NCBI GenBank assembly: GCA_009602725.1
Contig: WELB01000123.1
Location: 367,640-387,776, forward strand
Direction: 5' to 3'
DNA: 20,137 nt
Origin: Spirogloea muscicola
Lineage: Eukaryota > Streptophyta > Zygnematophyceae > Spirogloeales > Spirogloeaceae
Made by a program: the position numbers and the translations under genes. This document shows, one piece after another, positions 1 to 17,600 of the stretch. Each line of letters begins with the position of its first letter. Position 1 is the stretch's first letter. Under the pieces are notes generated by a model, which had not been told where the DNA came from, ran no database searches, and was given only the letters and a program-made list of their open reading frames with translations.

Positions 1-24
1 CCCCCCCCCCCCCCCCCCCCCCCC
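1..24. repeat. Poly-C homopolymer at window start
   Basis: Twenty-four consecutive C bases open the window, followed by a C/T-rich stretch up to the first ATG at 43. This could be a genuine homopolymer in the HSP90 5' leader or promoter, or an assembly artefact near a contig edge. Because of it the HSP90 promoter, including any heat-shock elements, is not visible here. Confidence 0.9.
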
Positions 25-42
25 TCTCCTCCTCGGGCCGCC

Positions 43-3000
43 ATGGCTCAAATTGGGCGCCCACATGCAGGCCGAATCCCACCTCAGGGCACCGCGAGGC
101 GTCCCCCAGAGGCCCTCGCTGCTCTTCGGCTCTTGCCGCCGCCCGGGCCGCCGTCGCCGCCGCCGGGCCGAGATGGCGGACGCCGCTGCCGAGGCGTTGC
201 CGACGACCAGTGCCGCGGCCGATACAGACGCCGACGCCGCCGCCAGTCCGCCGCCGAGGGCGGAACCGAGGTGTTTGCGTTCCAGGCCGAGATCAACCAG
301 GCAAGAGCCACATTGCCGTCGCCGCTGATTCCTGCTCCCGCTTCAGCATGCCATGGCCACCACGACGCACCGAACGTCGTCGCCGGCAGACTCGCTAGCG
401 CGGGCCATGCAAGGATCGCCGCCTGCGGGGAGCCTCGTGGGCGCTGCGGCGGCGGCCAGGGATTTTCAGCTCGTGCCTCTCACGTGGCGAGCGCGGCGTG
501 CCGCCGTGCGCGCGCGGCCGCAGCTGCTGAGCCTGATCATCAACACGTTCTACAGCAACAAGGAGGTGTTCCTGCGCGAGCTCCTGAGCAACGCGTCCGA
601 CGCGCTTGACAAGGTCCGGCACCGCAGCCTCACGGACCCCAAGGTACGCTGCCACCATTAGTGGCACGCATACATATATCTGTATCATAATCAACGAGCG
701 AGCACTGCCGCAGCTTGCACCTGAGCGCTTGCTTATCTTGCCGGGCTGCCTGCCTGCTGCCTATTATTGCTGGCCTCGATCCCTCAAGGTGCTGGAGCCG
801 GACCCGGAGCTGTGCATCCGCGTGACGGCCGAGGAGGAGGCCCGCACGCTGAGCATCCGCGACAGCGGGATCGGCATGACCAAAGCGGGTGAGGACGCCA
901 CGTCGCCGACGCGCTCCGGCCGGATGTCATATGCCCCGACCAGTCTGACGTGCTGAGCGCGCCTGACGTGCAGCAGAGGTCATCAACAATCTGGGGACAA
1001 TTGCGCGCTCGGGCACCAAGGAGTTCATGGAGGCGCTGCAGGAGGGCGGCGACGTGAGCATGATCGGGCAGTTTGGGGTCGGCTTCTACTCGGCGTTCCT
1101 CGTCGCTGACTGCGTCGTTGTCATCACCAAGCACCCCGACGACAACCAGTACGTGTGGGAGTCGCAGGTCAGCATTGCGGCTGCTGCTGCGGCGAGATGG
1201 ACCGGTCGCGGCCGGCACCAATCATCACATCCACTTCATCATTCACGTGGCACTATTACTACTGGGATGAAAAGTAATTCCTCCAATCTATATCAATCAG
1301 ACACAGCAGTCCGTGGCTTTGATAGTTCATCAGCGAAGTGCTTGATCATTGCACGCTGTGCACTTGTGTGGCAGGCGGGGGGGTCGTTCACGGTGCGGAC
1401 TGCCGATGGGGACACTATGGAGCTGCCGCGCGGCACAATTGTGACACTGCACCTCAAGGAGGACCAAGCGGAGTACCTGGAGGAGCGGCGCCTCAAGGAC
1501 GTCATCCGCCGCCACTCCGAGTTCATCAACTATCCCATCTACATGCGCGTCAAGAAGACTGTCGAGAGCCAGGTAAACGACGCCGACGACAACGAGGACG
1601 TCCCCATGGAGGTGACCCTGAGACCAACTATCTCACCTGCATCGAGTGCAGAGGTTTGGCAGGCGGATGCACCTCAAGCTAAGTACTTCCTTTGGTTGCG
1701 AATGTAATATCAGGGCGGCGAGGCTGAGGAGGGGAAGGTGGAGGACGTGACGGAGCGGGAGGGAGGCGCAGCGGCACCGGAGCACAAGGCGAAGAAGGTC
1801 AAGGAGGTGACATTTGTGTGGGAGCTGGTGAACAAGCAGGCGAGGACGAGCAGCTCCACCTCCCACTTGCACGCCTTGTAATGTGCTGTGAATTTCGGAG
1901 TCTAGAGGCAACCTTGTTTCTGGAGTCAGAGAGCGCCAGCTGTCCGTGACCTTGAGCAAGTGTATGGTACGCTCGGGCAGCAAGCTTTGACTGGCGGCTG
2001 TGCTACTTGAGTGCAATAGAAGCCGATCTGGATGCGCAACCCCGAGGAGGTGCGCGCCGACGAGTATGTGGTGTTCTACAAGAGCCTGACCAACGACTGG
2101 GAGGAGCCATTGGCGTACAAGCACTTCAAGGTGGAGGGCCAGCTCGAGTTCCGGGTGAGCCGCCTCCTGAAGAGACCTGAGATTGGGGCCCACGACGCCC
2201 ATCATTAAAAGACCATTGGTTTGTGCGCTGCAGCCCACGTTGGAGGGACGCTGGCCAGACTACACGTGTGACAGCTGAGTTTGGGCGATCTGTTGGGTTG
2301 CAGGCTCTCCTGTTCGTCCCGAAGCGTGCGCCATTCGACCTGTTCGAAGGGCGGCGCAAGAAGCAGACCAACGTGAAGCTGTACGTGCGGCGCATATTCA
2401 TCACAGACGACGCCGAGGACCTGATGCCCGAGTACCTGCGCTTAGTGAAGGGCGTCGTAGACTCGGAGGACTTGCCCCTCAACATCTCCCGCGAGATGCT
2501 GCAGCAAAGCAGAATCCTAAAAGTATCCTCAGTCAGAGTCCTTAGTCTTTCATTCATAGGTTGCGGGTCTTGATGTACCTGTGGGGTGAAGGTTTTGAGT
2601 ATCTATTCTAGTAGTAGTATCTAAGCTAGTGGAGTACTGGCCACGATTGACCAACAAAGAATTACAACTCTGTCAGTATAATGGCGGACAAGATCCAACA
2701 TCACATTGAAGGACTGTGACAAAGAATCATGGGACCTCCGGTTGCAACAGGTGATACGTAAGAACTTGGTGAAGAAGTGCATCGAGATGTTCTCTGAGCT
2801 GGCTGAGGACCGCGACAAGTACAAGACATTCTACGAGGCCTTCTCTAAGAACCTGAAGCTGGGCATATACGAGGACAGCCAGAACCGCGCCAAGCTTGCC
2901 GACCTTCTTCGCTTCTATTCCACCAAGTGCCGTGAGTCCTTCCTTCTGTTCATCACTTGCACCTCTCTCTCCATTGTACCTGGATACAGCTAACATAGAC

Positions 3001-4530
3001 GCTGATGAAGTTTTAGAATTTACCGTTGAAGGGACTGTCACAGGCAACAGGAAACCCGCTTAGACGATGAGGCCATGCCGCGACTGATGCTGGGCAGGCG
3101 ATGAATGGACGAGTCTGAAGGACTACGTAACAAGAATGAAGCCTCAGCAGACGGACATCTACTACATTACGGAGGAAAGCCTCAAGGCCGTGGAGCGATC
3201 GCCGTTTCTGGAGCGGCTTCAGAAGCTGGATATGGAAGTGCTGCTCATGACAGACCCCATCGATGAGTACATGGTGCAACAGGTGAGCATGGCGCGTGGC
3301 ACGCAGGTCTAGCAAGTCCGTCAGTACTGCCAGTATAACCTATGCCTGCCTTAGGTGTTGAAGTAGCTCCTTGGCTGCAAGATTCACTATGAGCAGCCAG
3401 AACGAATAGGTGGGATGAGAGTAGAAGCCTGAGGCTACACTTTGTTGGCGCCTCAATTTAGATATCGCAAGATTCTGACTGCAGCTCAAGGAGTACGATG
3501 GGCACAAGCTCGTCAATGTGACCAAGGAGGGGCTGAAGCTGCCCCTCGAGAGCGAGGAGGAGCAACAGGAGTGGGAGCGCCTGAAGCAGGAGTATGAGGG
3601 CCTCTGCAAGAAGGTCAAGGAAGTATTGGGCGACCGCGTAGAGAAAGTAGTCATTGGGAAGCGCGTCACTGAGTCGCCAGCCGTCCTTGTGACCGGCGAG
3701 TATGGCTGGACCGCCAACATGGAAAGGATCATGAAGGCTCAGGTACAGTGCCTCCTGAGAGTTGTCCCACATAAGCTCAAATTTGTCGCCCCTCCCTGTA
3801 TTTGATGTAGAGACCTTCCCCTTGCAATAACACAATTATTACTCCCTCTGTAGATTGTGATGAAGCCTGGACAAGTATTTGAAGCGTGCCTTCATCCTTT
3901 GCCCTAGTGAAGACTGTACATACAAGCAAGCAATTGCATATGCTTCCAGCGGCTGAGCATGCGGCGCTTTGAGAGAATCGTAGACAAGGTTATCGGATGA
4001 CCTTGCAAGCCTTGCCTCCTGGTTGGGGCTTGCGCAGGCACTGCGAGACGAGACCATGTCCAGGTACATGATGAGCAAGAAGACGCTGGAGCTCAATCCC
4101 CACAATGCCATTATCCAGGAGTTGAAGCGACGGATGGACGCCGACCCAGATGACAAGACGCTCAAGGACCTTATTGTCCTGCTGTATGAGACTGCGCTTC
4201 TCACTTCCGGCTTCAGTATCGACGAGCCGCAGGTAATACTGCTTTCACGTGAGAGCATCATATAGTAGGTCTAGAGGGTAGCCATCAAGTACGACTGCCT
4301 TGGCTGCGAGGCAAGGACGCATAAACCTTGTCCATGTTGGGCCTTGTCCTTTCAGGACGGGTGAGTGACGCATCAGCTTGTCTGTGCTGCAGCTCTTTGC
4401 ACGTCGCATTCAACGCATGATTCAACTGGGTCTAGGAGTGAAGGATGACGAGGAGGAGATGCAAAGTGGTGATGAGATGCCGCCCCTAGAAAGGGCAGCC
4501 GAAGAGAGCAAGATGGAGGAAGTCGACTAG
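43..4530 (+). CDS. HSP90: Cytosolic HSP90 molecular chaperone, 13 exons
   Basis: ATP-dependent dimeric chaperone of the GHKL ATPase fold, acting in cytosol and nucleus. Exons: 43(?)-300, 524-643, 789-888, 977-1167, 1375-1611, 1714-1839, 2020-2154, 2304-2522, 2751-2931, 3098-3282, 3485-3742, 4038-4232, 4393-4530. Exons 2-13 encode 694 aa in one continuous frame. Visible HSP90 landmarks in order: [10 protein letters not shown] (exon 1), the catalytic-Glu region [15 protein letters not shown] (exon 2), DSGIGMTKA nucleotide-binding loop (exon 3), [12 protein letters not shown] (exon 4), an acidic charged linker (exons 5-6), [11 protein letters not shown] and the Arg-finger region NISREMLQQ (exon 8), KNLVKKCIE (exon 9), [17 protein letters not shown] (exon 11), TALLTSGF (exon 12) and the terminal MEEVD. 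MEEVD binds TPR co-chaperones and marks a cytosolic, not organellar or ER, paralog. Introns 1 and 6 use GC donors. The start is unresolved: ATG 43 is open in frame and has a strong Kozak context but adds about 74 aa of Pro/Arg-rich sequence; ATG 173 gives a more typical Ala/acidic N-terminus but in another frame. Confidence 0.95.
301..523 (+). other. HSP90 intron 1, GC-AG type
   Basis: The universally conserved HSP90 stretch [18 protein letters not shown] is interrupted exactly after Q. The exon ends CCAG, the intron begins GCAAGA and ends CCGCAG. No GT near the junction would preserve the protein, so a GC donor is required. The 3' part of the intron is open in the frame of exon 2 from an ATG at 353. 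Confidence 0.85.
1840..2019 (+). other. HSP90 intron 6, GC-AG type
   Basis: The conserved junction [13 protein letters not shown] places the donor after CAG at 1839, with intron start GCGAGG and intron end CAATAG. No GT occurs near the junction that would keep both sides. The donor is less consensus-like than that of intron 1 (GCGAGG against the usual GCAAGT). Confidence 0.8.
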
Positions 4531-5244
4531 GCCTGCAATGACTTAGTGAAGCGAGTGGATGGTGCCTTGGTGTCAAAAACAAATGCACGTGGGACTGGGT
4601 CGGACCTGCTTTGAAAGTCGACAATTAGGAAACAGTGTCGCCTACCTTTCAGTGGGTTGGCCTCATCGACCAAGTTGGGCGGTCTCAGACACGTTGCACA
4701 AGGCACATCTGCCACCAGAGAAGTCCTGAGCTTTTGCTGTATCTGTCCTTACAGTGTCAGTATCACAACAGCATAGCACTCGATGGACATCTGATGAGAG
4801 CCGAGCCTTTCATGCTGCAGGATTGCCAGAGTGTTGTCCACCTAAGATTGCACCGGCGTGGATAGCAGTCTCTTGTCTGCCAACATACAAATTAAGGGAG
4901 GGGAGGCGGAATACTTTGAACCATATTCGTAAACCACAATGGAATGAAGCGTACACGGGGATGCCAGGCTTCTCAAAGCAAAGGCTGAGACCCAGCAAGT
5001 GGCGTTTGAGATGGTTAACTACACTTGGGTTCCCTACATCTAGGAGTAGGCTCACCTAGATGGAGGACTCTACACAAAATTGTCACCAATTCTTGAGACA
5101 GAAGCAACTAGCGGAATTGTGCAAGGCAGCGTACACAGTCAAGAAGCAGTCAAAGTTCCATTGCCTCGTTACTAAATTAATATGGTCGTCCCAGATCCTC
5201 TATGTATCAGCTAACCTAGATGCTACCCTTGACCAGCAAACGAC
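4531..5244. other. Convergent intergenic spacer (HSP90 / histidine kinase 3' regions)
   Basis: About 714 bp between two facing stop codons. I see no ORF with recognisable similarity and no RNA gene. It should hold the 3' UTRs of both genes. On the - strand there is a TGTAA at 4749-4753; I saw none on the + strand. Confidence 0.7.
4749..4753 (-). terminator. Possible TGTAA polyadenylation signal of the histidine kinase gene
   Basis: The + strand reads TTACA, that is TGTAA on the - strand, about 490 nt downstream of the kinase stop. TGTAA is the common poly(A) signal of many chlorophyte algae, and long 3' UTRs are usual there. A five-base match alone is weak evidence. Confidence 0.3.
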
Positions 5245-8200
5245 TCACACCTTCATATGCATACTTTCCACCTGATCTTCATTCACAGGGCTGGGAGGGA
5301 CGTACAGGATGCGCATCAGCGCCTTCCACAGCTGCTCTTCTTCGATGGGCTTGGTCACGAAACCGTCCATACCTGCCTCCTCACACCTCTCTCTGCTGCC
5401 CTTGACCACGTCAGCTGTCAGGGCCAGTATAGGTAGTCGTTTTGACACATTGAGAGTGTCCCTCTGCAGCTTGTCGGAAGCTTGCAACTCCGCCTTCTGC
5501 TCTTCCTCAAGCCAGCTCTTTTCCATGTCACGGATGCGCTTTGTGGTCTCATACCTGCATATTGTGGGCAATGAGTTGCAGAAGCTGCCGGTTAGTTACC
5601 GTTTGACTTGTGCAAGTACACAGTGTGCTGCTGCCATAAATGTATGTTTTCCTACTCTGTGTCTTTGATAACGTTTACGTGCTTTGAGGCCCAAACTCCT
5701 GTCCAGGAGATTCGTCCTCCTGCAACTCGTGACCTCGTTGACTGCAGTCAAGCAAAGCTAGGGAGGCAGGGACCTTTCTATATATATGTAGGCAGTCACC
5801 TACCCATCCATCTCAGGCATTTGCACATCCATGAGGATGCAGTCAAAATGGCGTGATGCTGCCAAGCTCTGAAGGGCCATCTTCCCACTTTCAACGCAGT
5901 GCACAACTGCACCAAAGCGAGCAAGTGTTGCAGATGCCACCTTCCGATTCACCAAGTTGTCATCCACAACCTGCAAGGGTCAGCGACATCATGCAATAAG
6001 AATCTGGAAGGCTTGTGCCACAGACAACAGCATGACACTGCCGCTTCGAGAGTACCAACACTGAAGCTCTGAGCCCCTTTGACCCACAAGCAGTCGAAAA
6101 CACCAGTACTGTGCCAGTTACATGCAGGCACTGCAGCTTCTGCATTTACATATAAGATACACTACAGCACGGAAGCAGTCCCACTCGCAAGGTGCTCACC
6201 ATGATCTGCTTGCCACTGAGCACCATGCACAGCATCTCCTGCCTCTGCAGCGTTGCTCGCCTCGTCATCACCCCTAGGCGGCTTGTGCCCATCTCCAGAG
6301 CCTGAAGGAGGCATGCTGCCATGGACCGACTGCGCAGGGGCTTGAGTAGAGTTGTAGAGAACCCCAACTTCCTGGCAAGGAGCTCATCGTCCTGCTGCAA
6401 AGTCGTGGCCAGAAGAACGAGCTTTGCAGGTTGCACCCCTGGTCTTCCTTGGTTCTGCATTTGCCACACAAACGCAAGGCATGAGGTGACGACCCTGACA
6501 GGCATGGAGCAGTAACCCTTGTGCGCCTGAGTCAGTAAAGAAGGCAGCTCAGTGTGGCGTGCGCGAAGTATGGTCCATCCTACATTAGGACATCAGATCA
6601 GGAACTCAAGTGACAGATTGAGGTCCTACCTTGAACTAGCGCAGCAACAGGAATGCATTGAGGACTCGGCCACTACCCACCTTGTCAAGCGCTTCTACGA
6701 AAGCCGTCTCTAACGCGGCCCAGCTGGTCAGACTGGAGGCACTTGAATCGACCAAGACAATGTCCCACAAGGCTGTGGCCGGGCCATGTGTTGGTGTCGC
6801 TGTGTGCACTTGTGCTGCTGCAGCCACAGATGTTTGTCCACTCTGCTCCAATTTCTGGAGAGCTTCCTCTGTCCCCTCGGCAAACTCCACGTAAACACCA
6901 AGCCGCAGCAAGTAATTGGCAGTGACCTGTTATATACAGACGAGAAACAGCAGTGCATCAGTCTCTTGGAACAGATCAGACTCTGCTCTTACCATATTCA
7001 TGAAGGCAAGAGTCAGTGACAGCTGTTCCTGCATGCTCCAGCCTAGACCATCCCAGACTGTACATTTCACAGCAATTTAAGGTGTAACAAATAGCTCCAA
7101 GTAGCGAACCTCAGCCCTGACAGGGCGCTCGTCCACAATCAAGGCTCTCAAGCCCTTCAGCTTTGTCATGTTTGGGAGTTCTGGTTCTTCCTCGGCCATT
7201 GCCTCGTGCTTTCCCAAATCCTCCAGCAAGATATCAAACTTGAATGTTGTACCCACTCCTAGCTCGCTCACGAATGTCATATTCCCACCCATCATTGCCA
7301 CCAGCCTGGTATACAGCAGATATGTGTCAGGAGCCTCAGTCATCCAGGATAACATATGGCAATCCTCAGCTAACAACCTCCTCATGTGAACTCACATCAT
7401 CCACGTACTCAAGGTGAACAAATGACAAGTTGGAGAGTCGTCACTGTCACCTCTCGTCTTCTTTTCTTCCTGCAGTTTCCCAGGACATGAGCAGGAGGTA
7501 CATTGTGTTCACGGTTATCTGCTATAGGTGCAATTTAAGCATAGACATGAACTCTCTTGACATGTAACGGGGGAAGCCAGCCTTACCTTTGACTGATACT
7601 AAGGCCGATGCCAGTGCCCCCATGTAGTCGCTGGGTGCTGCTGTCAGCCTGCATGAACGGCTCAAAGATTCTGCTTTGGGCAGATTGGGGGATGCCAATG
7701 CCAGTGTCCTCAAGCTCAAACACCAACCTGATAGGTCTACCTCTTGCTCCTGTGCATCTTTTGTCTTTCCCCTCATCCTTGTTGACTGGAGAACTTGCAA
7801 AATCCTGGGGCTTCTCATTCTTATAAGTACTACCTGACAGATAACTTTCCCTCCTACCTGTATCACTATCTCGTGTCACACTTCCTGTGACTCCTGGGCT
7901 TGAAGGCCTGAAGCGAGAGGCCACCCTGTCCTTGTCTTCTGCTACGCTTCTCCCACTTAGACTCTTGAGCATCAACGTCCTTGAGATACCACGCCCAGAA
8001 GTGGATGCCTTGAGTGACTCTAGCTGCCTCGTCACAAAGTCCTCATGAGTAGCAAGCTCACCCTGATCACATCTTAGCGCGGGGTCTGCAGCAGCAGGGC
8101 TTGGCGTCCTCTCCTGGTCAGAGGATGGCATGACCTGCCTCAAAGCTTGACAAGTACAACAGCATTGGGATGACTTGCCATCTGCCGGAAGGAGGCCATC

Positions 8201-11200
8201 TATGATCTCCTCCTCAGCATGATCAGATTGCTCATTAGCTGCTAGTTGCAAGGGATGTATGCCTTTGGATGACAAGGGCATGCTGACCCCCTCGATATCC
8301 TTAGCAGTGAGCCCATAAGCATGACCTGGTATCCACCTCAGTGCTTCAGAAGCTGCTTGACGTGCCAACTCGAGGAGGCCTTCAGAGTGAGAAGGAAAGA
8401 CTGTCCTTGGTGTCAGCGGTCCACTTCTTTGCAATGAGGCATCACCACTTTGTACAGATGTCGGTGGCTCTTCTACCTTGTCAACAACCTTCTTCACTTT
8501 CAGAAGGATGTGACCTTTCTTCGTGAACTTCAACGCATTGCCAATCAGGTTCACCAAGACCTGACGAAGCCGCACTGGGTCCCCAACCAAGCACCTCGGC
8601 ACACTCTCCAGGATCTGGGCAGCTAGCTCCAGCCCATCACCTTCTTCCCAGGTTTTCTGAGCGACCGAAGCGAACATACTCAGGACGTCATCAACGAGCA
8701 TATGAAGGTTGAAAGTAATAGATTCAAGCTCCTGAGCAGCACACGGCCAATTTGTCAGCATCATAGCAGACCCTCAAGGCAAGAATGTACAAGCATGCCA
8801 TATGAGTGCAAAAGGCCTCTGATGGAAACATTGCTGAGCCCAAGGTCTACTTTTGCAGACACTCGTATCAAAAGAACGCTTCCTGGTCTAGCTGTTGTTG
8901 GCCTGATTGGGTTATAGCCTAAAAGTGGACACAACGACACATATCCCAAAACGTCGAGAAATACGGTTAAATCTAATATGGAGTTTATTCAGATTGTGCT
9001 ATATATAATGAATCTGATGTAAGTACCATTCGCCCAGACTCTATCTTGGAGAGGTCCAACACATCGTTGATGAGGTAGATGAGGGCATTGCCACTTGACT
9101 GGGCTGTCCTGCAGTAGTCGAGCTGTACATTATCCATTGGTGTTCGGATCAACAGGTTGATCATCCCCAACATTCCATTCATGGGCGTACGTATTTCATG
9201 GGAAATAGTAGCTAGAAAGGCAGACTTGGCCATATTGCCAGCTTCTGCAGCCACTTTGGCTGCCTGCACCAAAGCTCAAGCGCGGTGATGTCAAGGCCAA
9301 TTCCAACGTCCCTGAGCAACGCACGGATTGAGGAAATAGCAATGCTGCCTAGAATAAGCTGAGACGTGTTTGTTGATGAAGGTGAAGGTGGGCACCACAG
9401 GTGTCCACCTTCATCTCATCCTTGAGTGCCTCCATACGGTGAAAGTCCCACTCCATTTGCTCTATTCTGTGGAACGCTTCCCAGATGATCTCAAGCAACA
9501 GGAGGGAGATGACAAGTGCCAGGACACCAGAAAGGAGGGCCCCCTTAGGAAAGGTGTATGGAACGGCATATCCACAACGGAGCTCATGCCTGCAGATCAA
9601 TGCTCCCAGGACATTACTGAAAGGTGGCTTTGCTCTCACAGCACTGACATCCTCCCACAACAAAAGATTGATCCTTTGATTTAATGCAGCCCCTAATCTC
9701 CTCAAACACAACAAGTTTCCATTGTCACTACAACTTCTGACCAAAATTGGAAGTCTGATGTGATTCTGTTTTACGGAATGAGTGAGTGAGTGTAGTAGGA
9801 ACCCCTTCCACATACATACCTACGGCTGCTATCACCCAGGTCCAGCTTGTACACAGTGCTATGATACAGGTTGGGCAAACCAGGACCTCCAACAGCGAGC
9901 TCTGAATTTTGTGGCACATACAGGCCCAATGGTACATCCTCAGTGACATCATCGATGCGCAAGACAAGGCAGGAAAGTCTGTCAACCCTGTTCCTGCACA
10001 CATATGAGCGTAAGTATGTGTCTGAGTTACTTCAACAGTCAGTGAATTTCTAAGATGCAGGTGAAAAACATATCAATGAATATCTGGACGGCAGCAAGTG
10101 CGACTTGCACTGTGCTTGAGCAAAGGCCAGAACCTCGACTGTATACTGCCACTCTGATGCGGTCCAACAGAAATTTAGCAGCAAATGTGCAAAGTGCAAG
10201 CACGCAACCGCACTTCCAAATCCTGTGTTAGCTCTTCCAACTTGTATACGTGCCTGGAAGAGCTTTGAGTGCTCAAAAGAGGTTCGATGCAAACAGTTGG
10301 ATCTAGAAGGCCCCCAACAAAGCCCCTGAGAGCTTCGGACTGGGCTTCGACTGGTGCCCAGGGCAAGGCTTTAGAGTCAACAACTGAGAAGGTAATGTAA
10401 ATCACTGTCTTGTTGTTGAACACGAAGGGCGCTGAGGTTGCCATGTTGCCTGTTTCTCGTGCCCGGGCAACCGTCTACAGCCATACAGCACAAGTCAGGG
10501 TCCACAAAATACTCCTTGCACATGATAAGGCACGTAGCGTACTAACACAGGTATGTGGAACTAAATAAATCATATACTTTGCCATGACTACTGGAACATC
10601 CGAGCAGCAAGGTGATGGCCTGCGAAGTGCAACTGCCCCTGTTGAATGAGACCAACCAAGTCCCCTTCTCTTCTATAGAATCTCTGACTCATGGCAAACA
10701 CTCAATTGCTACCTAGGCCTCAACTGCTCGTTCTGTGCATTATGCTGCATTTCCACATGCATGTATCAGAAGTAAGGCGCCCAAGTGGTGGGCTGCTAGT
10801 ATACCTTGTAAAGCAGTGGCTGTGAAAGCAAATCCAAGCTTGGGTAAGAGTGGCGTGGCGCTGAGTGGGTTATGACTACATACTCATCAAGGTCCAGATA
10901 GCGACTCTGCCAAATCCACGTACCACTTCCATAAGGCCAAGGCCTATCGGGGTTGCAAACAGGTGCAGCACCTGTAGCTCATCTGCTACCAATGTCATGC
11001 AAGTGCAGAGCCTCTATTGAGGTATACAAGGACACCCAAGCTGACAGGGAGGTGGTTTGGAAAGCCAACCTTCATGGGCACCCACTCTGATACCTCCAAG
11101 CCATGATTTTTCTCAAAGTTAGCACGATGAGAGTGCTTCACCAATGCCATCACATGATGATTGACAATAGCCTGATCAAGCTTCGTCTCATTGACATACA

Positions 11201-12008
11201 TCTGCATTAAGGCGGCAGCAGGCTATTGGGTGTTGTGAGACAATGACAAGCTCGCTAAGCCCCACCTGAAGAAGGCTTAACTGCAGCTCTTGGTCATAAC
11301 CAGCGCCGGGCTTCTAGCTCAGGCTTCAAAAGCTTCAGAGATACTAATACGCTGTGCAGAGCATAAGTGCATTAGCAGTTGGCTTGTTCTCCTTGACCTG
11401 TCAAGAGTCAGGAGAAGCCGGCAGATCTAAGGAGGACTGCATAGTACTCGATTGTATCTGAAATCAACGACAGTGGCATACCTCAAAGGCTGCACTGTCA
11501 AGCTGAGAGGGAACTTTGCCAAGATGGAAAGTCTTAACAAGCGCTTTGAGTGCTCGTATCTGCTGAGTATTTGTCAAAAACTGCACCATGGAGGAGCTGC
11601 TAAAGTCAGACTATAAGAGCATGCTGAGCAGCATTGTCTATTTTCAAGAAGCGGACTGGCAGTCATTGCTGGTGGGTTTAGGTTTGCAACAATCACACAA
11701 GCCAGGCCAGACTTGCACTGTCAAGCAGACAAAGGCTGCAAGAAGAGAGTATCTAAATCCATTGAGCATCTTCAATCAGGGATGGCAACAGGAAAATTCT
11801 GCACCTTCTCTTCAATCATGCGCGCCCGATCCATACAGATGCTTTCCAGCTGCCTCTGGCGCTGCCGGCTGAAGCTCCGATGATTGTTCACAAAGATATA
11901 TACAGCCATGAGTATGCCAGAGAGGAGCCATAGCGCCAAGAATGCCTTGCGCCAGTTCCGGCTCAGCTTCGCCGGGGTGAGCGACTCAGAGGTCAGCGCG
12001 CCAAACAT
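5245..12008 (-). CDS. CHASE-domain hybrid histidine kinase, cytokinin-receptor-like, 14 exons
   Basis: Membrane sensor kinase with the architecture of plant AHK/CRE1 receptors. Exons in transcript order: 12008-11805, 11580-11482, 11201-11070, 10906-10805, 10474-10254, 9993-9820, 9589-9409, 9263-9027, 8731-7587, 7305-7110, 6926-6681, 6454-6200, 5970-5804, 5554-5245. All phases agree and give 1222 aa. Residues 22-40 form a first TM segment; about 60-300 is CHASE (start motif [11 protein letters not shown], then [25 protein letters not shown]); 327-346 is a second TM. HisKA has [10 protein letters not shown] with His393. HATPase has the N box [10 protein letters not shown] (N511, N515), G1 EDTGIGIP (D792), F box FEPF and G2 GGTGIGL (821-827). 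The N and G1 boxes are separated by about 250 extra residues. First receiver about 883-1050; second receiver from 1065 with DD 1067-1068, phospho-Asp 1112 ([10 protein letters not shown]), T1166 and K1188. Expected phosphorelay: His393 to a receiver Asp to a separate HPt protein. The exon 5/6 junction needs a GC donor and is the least certain. An acceptor-like TTGCAG just before ATG 12008 leaves an upstream exon possible. Confidence 0.88.
7730..8491 (-). other. Approx. 250-aa insert within the kinase ATPase domain (exon 9)
   Basis: Between the end of the N-box strand (HILLKVKK, to about residue 531) and the strand leading into G1 ([15 protein letters not shown], from about 784) the kinase has roughly 250 residues with no ATPase-fold motif. 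Most of it is low in hydrophobics and rich in S, T, P, E, K and R, as expected for a disordered loop. A Cys cluster, QCCCTCQ at residues 639-645, sits mid-insert. Plant AHKs, from memory, have a shorter variable insert at this place. The exon has no in-frame stop and no obvious intron here, so I treat it as coding. Confidence 0.7.
9994..10253 (-). other. Kinase intron 5, probable GC-AG type
   Basis: The downstream exon must start with one base completing a codon (acceptor TGTGTGCAG, then NRVDRLSCL), so the upstream exon must end two bases into a codon. The best site is TCTTCCAG with intron start GCACGT at 10253. GT sites nearby are out of phase, apart from a poor one further downstream (CAA|GTTGGA). 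Assigned by phase and CHASE alignment only. Confidence 0.5.
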
Positions 12009-12878: not shown

Positions 12879-13036
12879 TTGTGCCGCCTCGCAGGCGACG
12901 AGGAGGCTGCCCAGGGCAGCCTCGTCAGGCCGAGCGCGGCACAGGCACTCAGACGCCAATGTCCCGCAGAAGCGAGCTGCCGGGAAGGCAGCACAGCAGC
13001 TATCTGCGGGGCAAGCACAGCCAAGCCACCGACGCA

Positions 13037-13037
<1 letters not shown>

Positions 13038-13080
<43 letters not shown>
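13038..13080. repeat. CCG trinucleotide repeat, 14 units
   Basis: A perfect (CCG)14 plus one base, preceded by GCAACC and followed by a CTGCCAGG segment. It produces poly-Arg, poly-Ala, poly-Pro or poly-Gly shadows in the six frames. Confidence 0.95.
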
Positions 13081-13297
13081 TGCCAGGAGAGGGTGGGGCC
13101 GGCAAGGGGGAGATTAATGTCAGCAATCTGTGGGAAGCGCCTGAGGGGTGGGAGTGGGCGAGGGGGGTGTCGAGGCCGGGGAGAGAGAGGGTGCTGCCAT
13201 GGGGTGGGCTTTGAGGGAGAGGTGCAGTCATCGATAGAACTTCCTGGGGGAAGGGAGAGGTCGGGGGGCGGTGCTGCAGAAAGGGAGAGGGGGCATT

Positions 13298-13318
13298 GGG
13301 GCGGGGAGGGGGGTGGGG
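13298..13318 (+). other. Strong G-quadruplex motif
   Basis: Four G-runs of 4, 4, 6 and 4 are separated by single-base loops C, A and T, a canonical pattern for a very stable parallel quadruplex. It lies in a G-rich purine-biased block of the divergent spacer, about 1.3 kb from both neighbouring genes. The opposite strand is the matching C-rich i-motif sequence. Confidence 0.8.
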
Positions 13319-13927
13319 CGGCGGCGGGCCCCACGGCGGGGCACCGCGCCGGTTGGGGGAAGCAATAGGCCGCCGCGCCCGGGACGCCGCGGCCCGTGAT
13401 GCCTCTGCCCGCCGCGCTTGCTCCCCGTCGGGCGCACTGGCTACGGGAGCTGCCGCGCGAGCCGCGTTTGGCGGTGCGGCCCGGCGGACATGGGCCGCCG
13501 GCCCGCGCTGCCCTGCTGGCAGGCGCTTCGCCCGCCCGTGGGGCCACCCGGGCAGGCCCGGGGTGGGTGGCGGGGGCTTTTTGCTCGCTCAGCCGCATCA
13601 ATCAGCACTAACTGAGGCACTAACCGGGGGGCATAACTCATGTTGTGCATCTCAATGACTCCATTAAGCGGCAAACGCTCAAAATCCTGGAATTCTTATG
13701 CGTCCGTTGACGCTGTGTCAGAGACTGTCCGCCATGCACTGACGTCGCCAAGAACCTCCGACCTGGACAGTGGATGCTGGTGGCGCTCGCTGACCTGGAT
13801 GCATCGCAGCCGTTTGAAGCGCCACGAGGGACTGAACCAGGGTGCCAGCGTGGCATGTAGGCTCCCCAGAGCAGCACAGGTTGCCCCAACCGACGGCAAG
13901 ACCACGTGGCGGGTCCTCTACCGCAAC

Positions 13928-13929
<2 letters not shown>

Positions 13930-13966
<37 letters not shown>

Positions 13967-13980
13967 AGCCGCCGCCGCTA
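13930..13980. repeat. CCG trinucleotide repeat, 12 units plus interrupted tail
   Basis: (CCG)12 at 13930-13965, then CAG and further CCG units. Like the repeat at 13038 it is preceded by GCAACC, so the two may share an origin or simply have similar low-complexity flanks. Confidence 0.95.
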
Positions 13981-14605
13981 AGCCCGCCGCCGTTTCCGGT
14001 GACGACGCCGTCGTCGGCGGCGGGCTGCGACGACGGCGGGGGCTTGAGCCGCGAGCCGCGCCACCGTCTCAGGACTCAGATCCGAGCCTCCGGGCCGTGG
14101 ACTTGATGGTGATGCAGACGCTGCCGCCAGCGCCGCCAGCGCCGGCGCCGCCTCGCGGCAGAGCAGCCGACGGCGGCGCTGTGGCAGAGCCCCCGGCCTG
14201 CCGTCGCCCGCGGCCCGCGCGTCGGCGACACCGGCGGCGCCGTAAGCGGAACCCCCCGATTTGAACCCCTGCCCTCGCCAAGCGGCCCCTTGGGACCTTG
14301 TCCATCCCCCCCTGGGCTGTGGCTTGTCACCGTCATAGCCCCCTACTGGCAAGAAGGCCGTTAGAAAGTGAGTGCCTGACGTAAGCCGGGCGTCGCAAGC
14401 GCGCTTACCTGGAAGCTCAGATGGAGCCGATCGAGAGCCTCGCTGACTTCTGTGCTTTTATGGTTCTATCCTATCTGGCTGCCGGAAGCATCCAAAACCC
14501 GTCTGTTGCGTCGCACACCACAGACCCCTCCTTGAAACCTGTGGACTTGAGTGTCCTGCTGCTGTTTCTTTGTGCTCCCAACCACAGGAAACGAAGCTCT
14601 CGCCT

Positions 14606-17600
14606 ATGTCTTATCTCGTCGCCCCCCTCCTTTTGGGGTTGCAGGTGCTGCTGCTGGACGACGTGGGGCTGAGCGCCGGCGAGCGCGACCTCTTGGATGG
14701 CGCGGCCTGGCGGCTCGTGCCCGGCGACCGCGTGGGCCTCGTGGGCGCCAACGGCTGCGGCAAGTCCACGTTGCTGCGAGTGATCGCCGGACGGCGGGAC
14801 GCAGATCGCGGTGCCGTGCTTATGGACACCGGGACCCGACTTGGGTACCTGGAGCAGACGGCCGTGTCTGGCTCCACTCGCACTACGTGGGACGAGGCAC
14901 GGTCGGAGATGGCGGAGCTCAACGCCGCCGAGGAAGAGCTCAGGGCTGCGGAGCTCGCGGTGGAGCGCGAGGAGCACGGCGCCGTGCAGCTGCTCGGCCA
15001 GGCCATGGAGGCCTTCGAGGCGGCGGATGGCTACAAGGCGGACGAGAGCATCGCCAGGTGCTTCCAGCGTGCAGCGCTGCAGAAGTGCTGCCACACTGAG
15101 GGCGGCACTGAGATGTTTGTGGTTGTGCTCATTGCCAGCCGGGCTCCACTTTGCGAGCAGCTTGTTTGGAAGTGCTGACACGGCCTTCTCATCCTGGACA
15201 GCGTGCTCGGTGGCCTGGGGTTCGGCCCGCGCGACTGGAAGCGGTCGTGCGCCGAGTTCTCGGGCGGCTGGCAGATGCGCATCGCGCTCGCTCGCCTGCT
15301 GCTGGCTCAGGCCGGCGCCGGCGCGCGCTCCCTTCTCCTGCTCGACGAGCCGACCAACCACCTCGACAGCAGTGCCAGGGTGCGCATAAATTTGCTGAAA
15401 GCATCATCGCTATTAACGTGAACGTTATAAATCTGCCGCTCTGATACTGGCTCTGCCGTCCGGCTGGCAGGCGTGGCTGGCCAACTATCTGCGGGCGGCG
15501 CCGGGCTCGGCTATCGTGGTGAGCCACGACGAGGAGCTCCTGGACCGTGTGTGTGGCCGCATCGCTGAGATCCGCGGCAGCCAGCTGCACCACTTCACCG
15601 GCAACTACTCCAAGTTCCTCCGGGAGCGGGAGGCGCGGCAGCAGCAGGCGGCCGCGGAGGCCGAGGGCCGCTCTCGTGAGGCTGCGCGGCTCCAGGGCTT
15701 CATCACTCGCTTTGGCGCCAAGGCAACCAAGGCAGCCGCCGCCAACTCCAAGAAGAAGCAGCTGGCCCGGCTCCAGGAGGACATGCCCCAAGAAGTTGTT
15801 GCTGGTGCGCATCTAGGATTCGTTCTTAACTCCCAGCAAAGCACTGTCTTCGAAAGTCAATAGGAAGTTTGTATACTCAACTTCCCCTTAGAGGCCTGAC
15901 AACCGTGTAGTCATTACTTGCAAGATTGTCGTGCTTCAAGCTCCATTCGTGCTCTGGTAGCTCTCGCCTTGCCGTCTCTCACAGGGTGCAGAGCTTGAAG
16001 CTGTTGCTCACTTGCGTGCTGTCCACTTTGCTCAGCCGATGCCATCGTACTATCGGCTATGTCTTGCCAGGGATGGCGGATGCTGCTGGGGAGCGGCGGA
16101 GCGTGAGCGTCAAGCTCCCACCGGCGCCAGCATGCGCTCGTGAGGTGCTGACCTTGAAGAAGGCGGCCGTAGGCTGGGCAGCCGGGCAGGCCCTGCTCCG
16201 GAATGTCAACCTCAATCTGGAGACGGGCATGCGGCTGGTATGCAGAAGGCCCCCCTTGATGCTCAAGGCCTGGCCAATGCTAGCAAATGCTGCTCGGCTG
16301 CAGTTGCGCAAGGGACTCGGTACAAGAGGTCACTAGTCTTTCATGTGTCACACTAGATCCTACTAATCATCAGTGGAAATCGATTAAGTGTGAGGAGGTG
16401 TTGTATTGTATGGTGTAGGCATTGACGGCCTGAGGGTTTTGTGCTGGGTATAGTAGGAGGTTATGAAGTTGAGCAGCATAGGCTGCCGCACCATCGGATT
16501 CCACACTACCAAGCTGACACTGGCACCAGCTGCGCCGGATGTTGTGGCAGGTCATTCTCGGCCCCAACGGATGCGGGAAGTCGACGCTGCTGCGGGCGCT
16601 GGCCGGCGAGCGGACGCTGCTTGAGGGCACCCGGGTGGTCGGCGCGGGCGTCCAGATTGGCATCTTCACACAGGACCTTGCACAGGACCTGCAGCAGGAC
16701 CTCTCAGCACTCGAGTGCGTCTTGGAGGTATGTGCTCCTGGCGTCATGCAGGCCAACTAGCGGCACGGCTCTACCATCTCGGTGGTTTATAGGCAATTTG
16801 ATGAGGAAGCTGCCACTGCGGTGCAGCTTCTATAGGTCTCGGATCTGTATTCCTGAGCCATCTGCCTGCTGTTGTGCTGCGGTGCAGATAGCAAGAGAGA
16901 AGGACCCGACTGTGACGGATGTGAAAGCGCGGACTGCACTTGGCGCGCTGGGCCTCAGCGGCGAGACCGCCTTACGCCCAATCAGGGAGCTCTCAGGTAT
17001 GCGGCCATGAAGGGGGCCAGCAGGGCAGGGGTTGTTTGCGATGATCAGATTGCAGACTACAAACCTTGCTACCAGTGATGGATCGGCGTCAATTTGTCTT
17101 GCATTTAGTTTGCACTTTACTGAGTTAAGTAAGGGTGTGGCGGCCTACTATTACAGATAAATGCTAGACTTTGAGGTTGAAAACCTTGACACTTACAACT
17201 TTTGGCACATGCAATTAGACATCTCACAATTTACTGAGTCAGCTCAGCCCCTTCTCTGTGGCTGCTACACATTAGTTGGGGACTTGCGTTGAGCTTGCCG
17301 TTTCCTTCTTGATGAATCTGCGAGCTCCTTTGGATGCTGTGCCGCCAGGCGGCGAGAAGGCACGCGTGGCATTGGGCGGCTTCGTCCTGCGGCCGCACAA
17401 TGTCCTCCTGCTGGACGAGGCGAGCAATCACCTTGACCGGCCCACCGCCAAGGCACTGGCCGCCGCTGTCAAGAGCTTCAAAGGTAGCCGCTGCTGGGCC
17501 TGCTGGCAGGCATCGATGCGTGTCAGTGCAGACATCCGGACGAGTGTCGCGATCGCCCATGCGCTGGTCGTTCTCAGCCTTTCAGAGGCCCTCTCTGTGC

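Follow-up and report, generated by a model that had tools for sequence, protein, structure and literature searches.

A CHASE histidine kinase of the AHK family with an altered cytokinin pocket in the streptophyte alga Spirogloea muscicola

The stretch of 20,137 nucleotides analyzed here (the window) comes from the alga Spirogloea muscicola and carries, on its minus strand, a single gene for a CHASE histidine kinase (CHK), running from an ATG at 12008 to a stop codon at 5245. We interpret the product as an AHK-family CHK of a streptophyte alga that is a working kinase, with an input that is probably not cytokinin, or with cytokinin bound weakly, and we assign this reading a probability of roughly 0.77. 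The input is doubted because most contacts on the adenine side of the cytokinin pocket, including a key aspartate, have been lost. A search of the open-licence literature returned no description of this particular gene, although that is no proof that there is none.

Architecture and ancestry of the kinase

The predicted protein is 1,224 amino acids (aa) long and comprises, in order, a transmembrane helix (TM), CHASE, a second TM, HisKA, HATPase, a pseudo-receiver and a receiver. An earlier note on this DNA had described a complete CHASE histidine kinase of 1222 aa; this observation holds with its length amended, Pfam having found all of the domains in the product of the 14-exon gene. The spliced protein matches Pfam CHASE at aa 94-248 with 45.5 bits (cut-off 25, E 9.5e-12), HisKA lies at aa 385-450, HATPase_c is found in two stretches, Receiver_CRE1 (PF24896, the degenerate first receiver of the AHK4 type) covers aa 881-1034 (E 1.8e-23), and Response_reg (PF00072) starts at aa 1065 (E 1.3e-24). 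The two strongest hydrophobic stretches, aa 22-40 and 330-348, flank the sensor, placing CHASE between two TM helices. The order TM-CHASE-TM-HisKA-HATPase-REC-REC given by the earlier note is thereby retained, except that its first 'REC' is the degenerate pseudo-receiver, and the protein has the motifs it had picked out (RARM where CHASE begins, SLD and ARARETG).

Compared with the PDB, the sensor half matched AHK4 (3t4j, E 9.1e-22) as the sole distinct sequence at E values up to 1. For the cytoplasmic part the best chain was 7p8e (E 1.9e-132; the next sequence reached 3.7e-50), which carries the PDB label of a histidine kinase receiver domain and which we take to be Medicago CRE1. In the alignment with 7p8e, the region of the phospho-accepting His, the nucleotide-binding boxes and the region of the receiver Asp (QMPEMDG) are identical or nearly identical; the catalytic motifs of HisKA and HATPase_c are present and aligned with plant CRE1, and the signaling half looks intact. 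A tree of the HisKA-HATPase region placed four algal rows together with plant CRE1 (support 100/99, values from a bootstrap that had not fully settled) and apart from 80 bacterial rows. The 85 rows of this tree included algal kinases from contigs C123 (that of the window), C12, C69 and C32, the copies on C95, C94 and C172 being left out; the bacterial rows were the best 80 of at least 592 candidates, chosen by similarity of the kinase and not of CHASE, and fungal, amoebozoan, giant-virus and other algal CHKs lay outside it. Since the sensor matches AHK4, the cytoplasmic part matches 7p8e and the kinase groups with CRE1, an AHK-type architecture and ancestry are supported by sequence comparison.

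We infer a phosphorelay, a location in the membrane and the nature of the input. A dimer of extracytosolic CHASE sensors would detect a small ligand or other cue, and the signal would pass via TM2 to HisKA, where the conserved His would be autophosphorylated. The Asp of the C-terminal receiver could then accept the phosphate and pass it on to an HPt protein, and the pseudo-receiver probably acts as a scaffold.

The cytokinin pocket

The 22 cytokinin contacts of AHK4 were taken from Table 2 of PMC3491891, and the numbering of the AHK4 chain agreed at 23 of the 23 residues tested. An alignment of six sequences retains five of the 22 in the algal protein (Ala204, Phe281, Thr294, Gly320 and Gly321) and leaves five in gaps; two pairwise alignments retain six, Tyr250 being added, with two gaps. 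All three alignments of the window copy replace Asp262 with Leu and Thr278, the 'wooden leg' (wol) site, with Ser, residues that are also found in all three copies of the gene, and all three leave Leu284 in a gap. Neither Trp221 nor Arg282 is retained. Identity amounts to one or two of 13 contacts on the adenine side and to four of nine on the tail side (Ala204, Thr294, Gly320 and Gly321), where positions 241, 256, 266 and 318 carry conservative changes; the difference between the two sides (1/13 vs 4/9) is not significant (p = 0.12). With so few contacts kept and both Asp262 and Thr278 replaced, the word 'canonical' of the earlier note is not supported at the ligand site.

Mutational studies of AHK4 give these positions their weight. 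Exchange of Phe281 or Thr294 for Ala abolished binding (Phe304 and Thr317 in PMC1863423, renumbered in PMC3491891), exchange of Trp221 or Arg282 for Ala reduced it (PMC1863423), and the bonds made by Asp262, which forms hydrogen bonds with the adenine, have been called crucial for binding (PMC3491891). Conceivably, the algal protein functions as a cytokinin receptor and binds its ligand through a rearranged pocket. Such a receptor would fit the plant-type architecture, the kinase and receiver motifs held in common with CRE1, the retention of Phe281 and Thr294, on both of which binding by AHK4 depends, the largely kept or conservatively changed tail side, the Tyr250 seen in two of three alignments, and the purifying selection on CHASE. 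However, it would have to bind cytokinin with Leu in place of Asp262, Ser in place of Thr278, a gap at Leu284, hardly any of the adenine-side contacts and neither Trp221 nor Arg282, and moss proteins with like changes of the Asp and Thr are described as weak binders if they bind at all. We therefore regard a functional cytokinin receptor as unlikely and favor the reading of a working kinase with another, or a weakly bound, input.

Several observations weigh against the reading that we favor. Phe281 and Thr294 are kept in three alignments, Ala204, Gly320 and Gly321 are likewise kept, and Tyr250 joins them in two of the three, so that cytokinin binding is possible. A selective loss of the pocket is unsupported: 5/22 contacts are kept compared to 77/237 positions elsewhere (p = 0.47), and with the 6/22 of the pairwise alignments (p = 0.64 and 0.81) the pocket is again not significantly below the rest. 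In the pocket, the three gene copies agree at 16 of the 17 positions outside gaps, no more than expected from their agreement across the entire sensor (250 of 272), and some pocket positions fall in poorly aligned loops. In addition, the kinase tree has one plant sequence alone, and a genome-wide Pfam search for HPt returned no candidates, a result that is uninformative for intron-split genes.

A more far-reaching proposal, to which we give little credence, is that the AHK machine was kept under purifying selection while its CHASE pocket was turned to a different ligand, plant CHASE receptors having sensed a non-cytokinin, perhaps isoprenoid-like, molecule before their specialization in land plants. 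It would fit a hydrophobic tail chamber that is better preserved than the adenine side, albeit not significantly so, and a genome in which a search of limited sensitivity detected no classical receptor. The gene is a usable candidate for the study of what ancestral CHASE receptors sense, being full-length, altered in its pocket, under purifying selection and found in the lineage that is sister to land plants.

Sister copies, host and gene model

The gene and its two sister copies belong to a triplicated block and lie on contigs C123, C95 and C12. An HSP90 gene adjoins the kinase on all three, and tandem duplication was accordingly rejected. The ratio of nonsynonymous to synonymous substitution (dN/dS) is 0.193, 0.213 and 0.223 over the whole gene for the three pairs. 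It ranges from 0.02 to 0.24 across CHASE, HisKA, HATPase and the receiver, with 0.14-0.24 in CHASE and 0.02-0.05 in the surroundings of TM2 and HisKA, and reaches 0.19-0.38 in the pseudo-receiver. The least constrained part of the protein is a linker of ~235 aa (aa ~546-780, in exon 9, 7587-8731), with a dN/dS of 0.47-0.72.

Exon 2 of the C95 copy contains a frameshifting 16-bp insertion, the one feature that might suggest a decaying relic without function. This alternative is very improbable: the window copy has an uninterrupted reading frame, that of the C12 copy runs to its own stop, 9 residues before that of the window copy, and dN/dS is low in the domains and elevated in the linker alone. 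The insertion and its adjacent sequence form a 14-base perfect inverted repeat, so that either a template-switch mutation or an error of assembly may have produced it.

The host is, with near certainty, a streptophyte. Genome searches covered 153 Mb in 471 contigs of the 174-Mb assembly and found 92 exon matches to GRAS transcription factors, whereas none of 14 prokaryotic control genomes gave a match; the origin of the GRAS family has been placed at the ancestor of Zygnematophyceae and land plants (PMC11712027, PMC11096116), and a recent whole-genome triplication is described for the zygnematophyte S. muscicola (PMC10487979). The 'probable chlorophyte' of the earlier note thus gives way to a streptophyte alga, because its genome holds GRAS genes and the triplicated block. 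The GC content of the flanks, up to 0.71, resembles that of some chlorophytes, but in view of the 92 GRAS matches and of the kinase and HSP90 genes lying together on three contigs, the idea of a chlorophyte CHASE receptor that informs on the age or transfer of cytokinin perception can practically be discarded. With a streptophyte host and a non-canonical ligand site, the argument about age and transfer in chlorophytes therefore falls away, and the gene is unusable as evidence for cytokinin receptors in that group.

The gene model has 14 exons (Table 1) and 13 introns of 145-330 bases, every one GT-AG. Exons were joined and splice sites chosen by hand, and two exon borders allow alternatives: exon 3 may end in ...GLE or in ...VPMK, and the junction of exons 5 and 6 is ambiguous. 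Aligned by the exon borders of the window copy, GT-AG is present at 13/13 introns in C123, C95 and C12, which is weaker support than transcripts would give, as sites inside coding-like sequence are conserved anyway. Judged from sequence, this is a real coding gene, because the splice sites align as GT-AG in the sister copies and dN/dS is 0.19-0.22. A chance mosaic of open reading frames was rejected by dN/dS, and bacterial contamination by the 13 introns, the copies on three contigs and the kinase tree.

Table 1. Exons of the kinase gene, in window coordinates, with the protein features they encode.
Feature	Position	Strand	Basis or remark
Exon 1: start codon, TM1 (aa 22-40), beginning of long helix, RARM	11805..12008	-	conserved in C95 and C12
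Exon 2: long helix, beginning of CHASE	11482..11580	-	site of the 16-bp insertion in the C95 copy
Exon 3: CHASE; ambiguous 3' end	11070..11201	-	gene model, AHK4 alignment
Exon 4: CHASE (DEY, SLD; AHK4 Asp262 position = Leu)	10805..10906	-	gene model, AHK4 alignments
Exon 5: CHASE (ARARETG; Thr278 position = Ser; Phe281, Thr294 kept); ambiguous 3' end	10242..10474	-	gene model, AHK4 alignments
Exon 6: membrane-proximal part of sensor	9820..9987	-	gene model, AHK4 alignment
Exon 7: end of sensor, TM2 (aa 330-348), linker	9409..9589	-	gene model, hydrophobicity
Exon 8: HisKA, motif at aa 394	9027..9263	-	Pfam, CRE1 alignment
Exon 9: HATPase_c split by weakly constrained ~235-aa linker	7587..8731	-	Pfam, dN/dS, CRE1 alignment
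Exon 10: end of HATPase, start of pseudo-receiver	7110..7305	-	Pfam
Exon 11: pseudo-receiver (Receiver_CRE1)	6681..6926	-	Pfam
Exon 12: end of pseudo-receiver (LKPLR)	6200..6454	-	Pfam
Exon 13: receiver, VVDDN and phospho-acceptor motif	5804..5970	-	Pfam, CRE1 alignment
Exon 14: end of receiver (LALTADV, TKPI), stop codon	5245..5554	-	CRE1 alignment

Around the kinase gene, an HSP90 exon lies at window 967-1707 (+) in the block common to C123, C95 and C12, and an exon for an ABC transporter ATPase lies at 14447-15178 (+), matched on C123 and C95 and not on C12. GC content contrasts sharply between the flanks (0.68-0.71 at window 1-1000 and 13001-15000) and the kinase gene (0.49-0.54 over 5001-12000).

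The genome encodes further CHASE kinases. A search with the AHK4 sensor gave eight exon matches in three families (C123/C12, C69/C94 and C32/C172; best E 0.009), among which no exon resembled a classical receptor; the sensitivity of this search was limited, as neither the window gene's copy on C95 nor the C99 family was recovered. The C69/C94 and C32/C172 families were each detected in two copies. In single alignments of hand-joined exons, C69 carries Ile at the Asp262 position and keeps 2/22 contacts (84/237 elsewhere, uncorrected p = 0.016), and C32 has that position in a gap and keeps 5/22 (64/237 elsewhere, p = 0.80). A fourth, GC-rich and very divergent family is represented by C99:516600-525600, with kinase relatives on C350 and C298. 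Its CHASE-like stretch, at about 4153-4500 of that locus, was matched by AHK4 when searched against the single locus (E 2.5e-4); inspection of the pocket was by eye, and most letters in the first 3.9 kb of the locus are N. On C107, no CHASE match exceeded chance (best E 0.13), the first ~3 kb of that locus being largely N. Genome-wide Pfam searches returned no CHASE match, a false negative given that the window gene itself is present and that short exons defeat the search, and no match to the cytokinin-binding domain of CKX, which for the same reason says nothing about its absence.

Comparison with known CHASE kinases

Coupling of a CHASE sensor to a histidine kinase is also found in bacteria, as described for PcrK and All2875 (PMC7700396). 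The likeness to the algal protein lies in this coupling, and the kinase tree sets the algal and plant kinases apart from 80 bacterial ones, which were picked by kinase similarity and not by CHASE. The closest architectural likeness is to AHK4/CRE1 and AHK2/3 of land plants, which have a like domain order and a pseudo-receiver of the Receiver_CRE1 family, CRE1 being the best solved match. Unlike AHK4, with which the pocket was compared, the algal protein keeps five or six of the 22 contacts and carries Leu for Asp262 and Ser for Thr278, and it differs from AHK4/CRE1 in the ~235-aa linker inside its HATPase region.

A similar pocket has been described in moss. Seven 'sister CHKs' of Physcomitrium patens retain kinase and receiver motifs but carry Phe, Tyr or Leu in place of the binding Asp and Ser or Trp in place of the wol Thr, and the authors concluded that these proteins bind cytokinin very weakly if at all (PMC8657898); we liken the algal protein to them by description. 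The moss group is also marked by a deletion where CHASE begins (positions 329-334 of the alignment in PMC8657898). CHKs of streptophyte algae are reported to group with this moss 'sister' subfamily (PMC10338860). They are already known from Zygnema, Spirogyra, Klebsormidium and Chara, related lineages with kinases of the same family. Table 1 of PMC10338860, which does not include Spirogloea, counts five for a Zygnema, four for a Spirogyra and none for Chlamydomonas, and the CHKs of Zygnema have been described (PMC9915684). The Spirogloea gene is a further CHK from a streptophyte alga and differs from the other algal CHKs in that its copies were multiplied by triplication. An input other than cytokinin, or weakly bound cytokinin, is consistent with the literature on moss and algal CHKs. 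It has been argued in print (PMC10338860) that the CHASE kinases of streptophyte algae are similar to the moss 'sister' group and possibly no true cytokinin receptors, and the Spirogloea pocket adds a residue-level case for this view.

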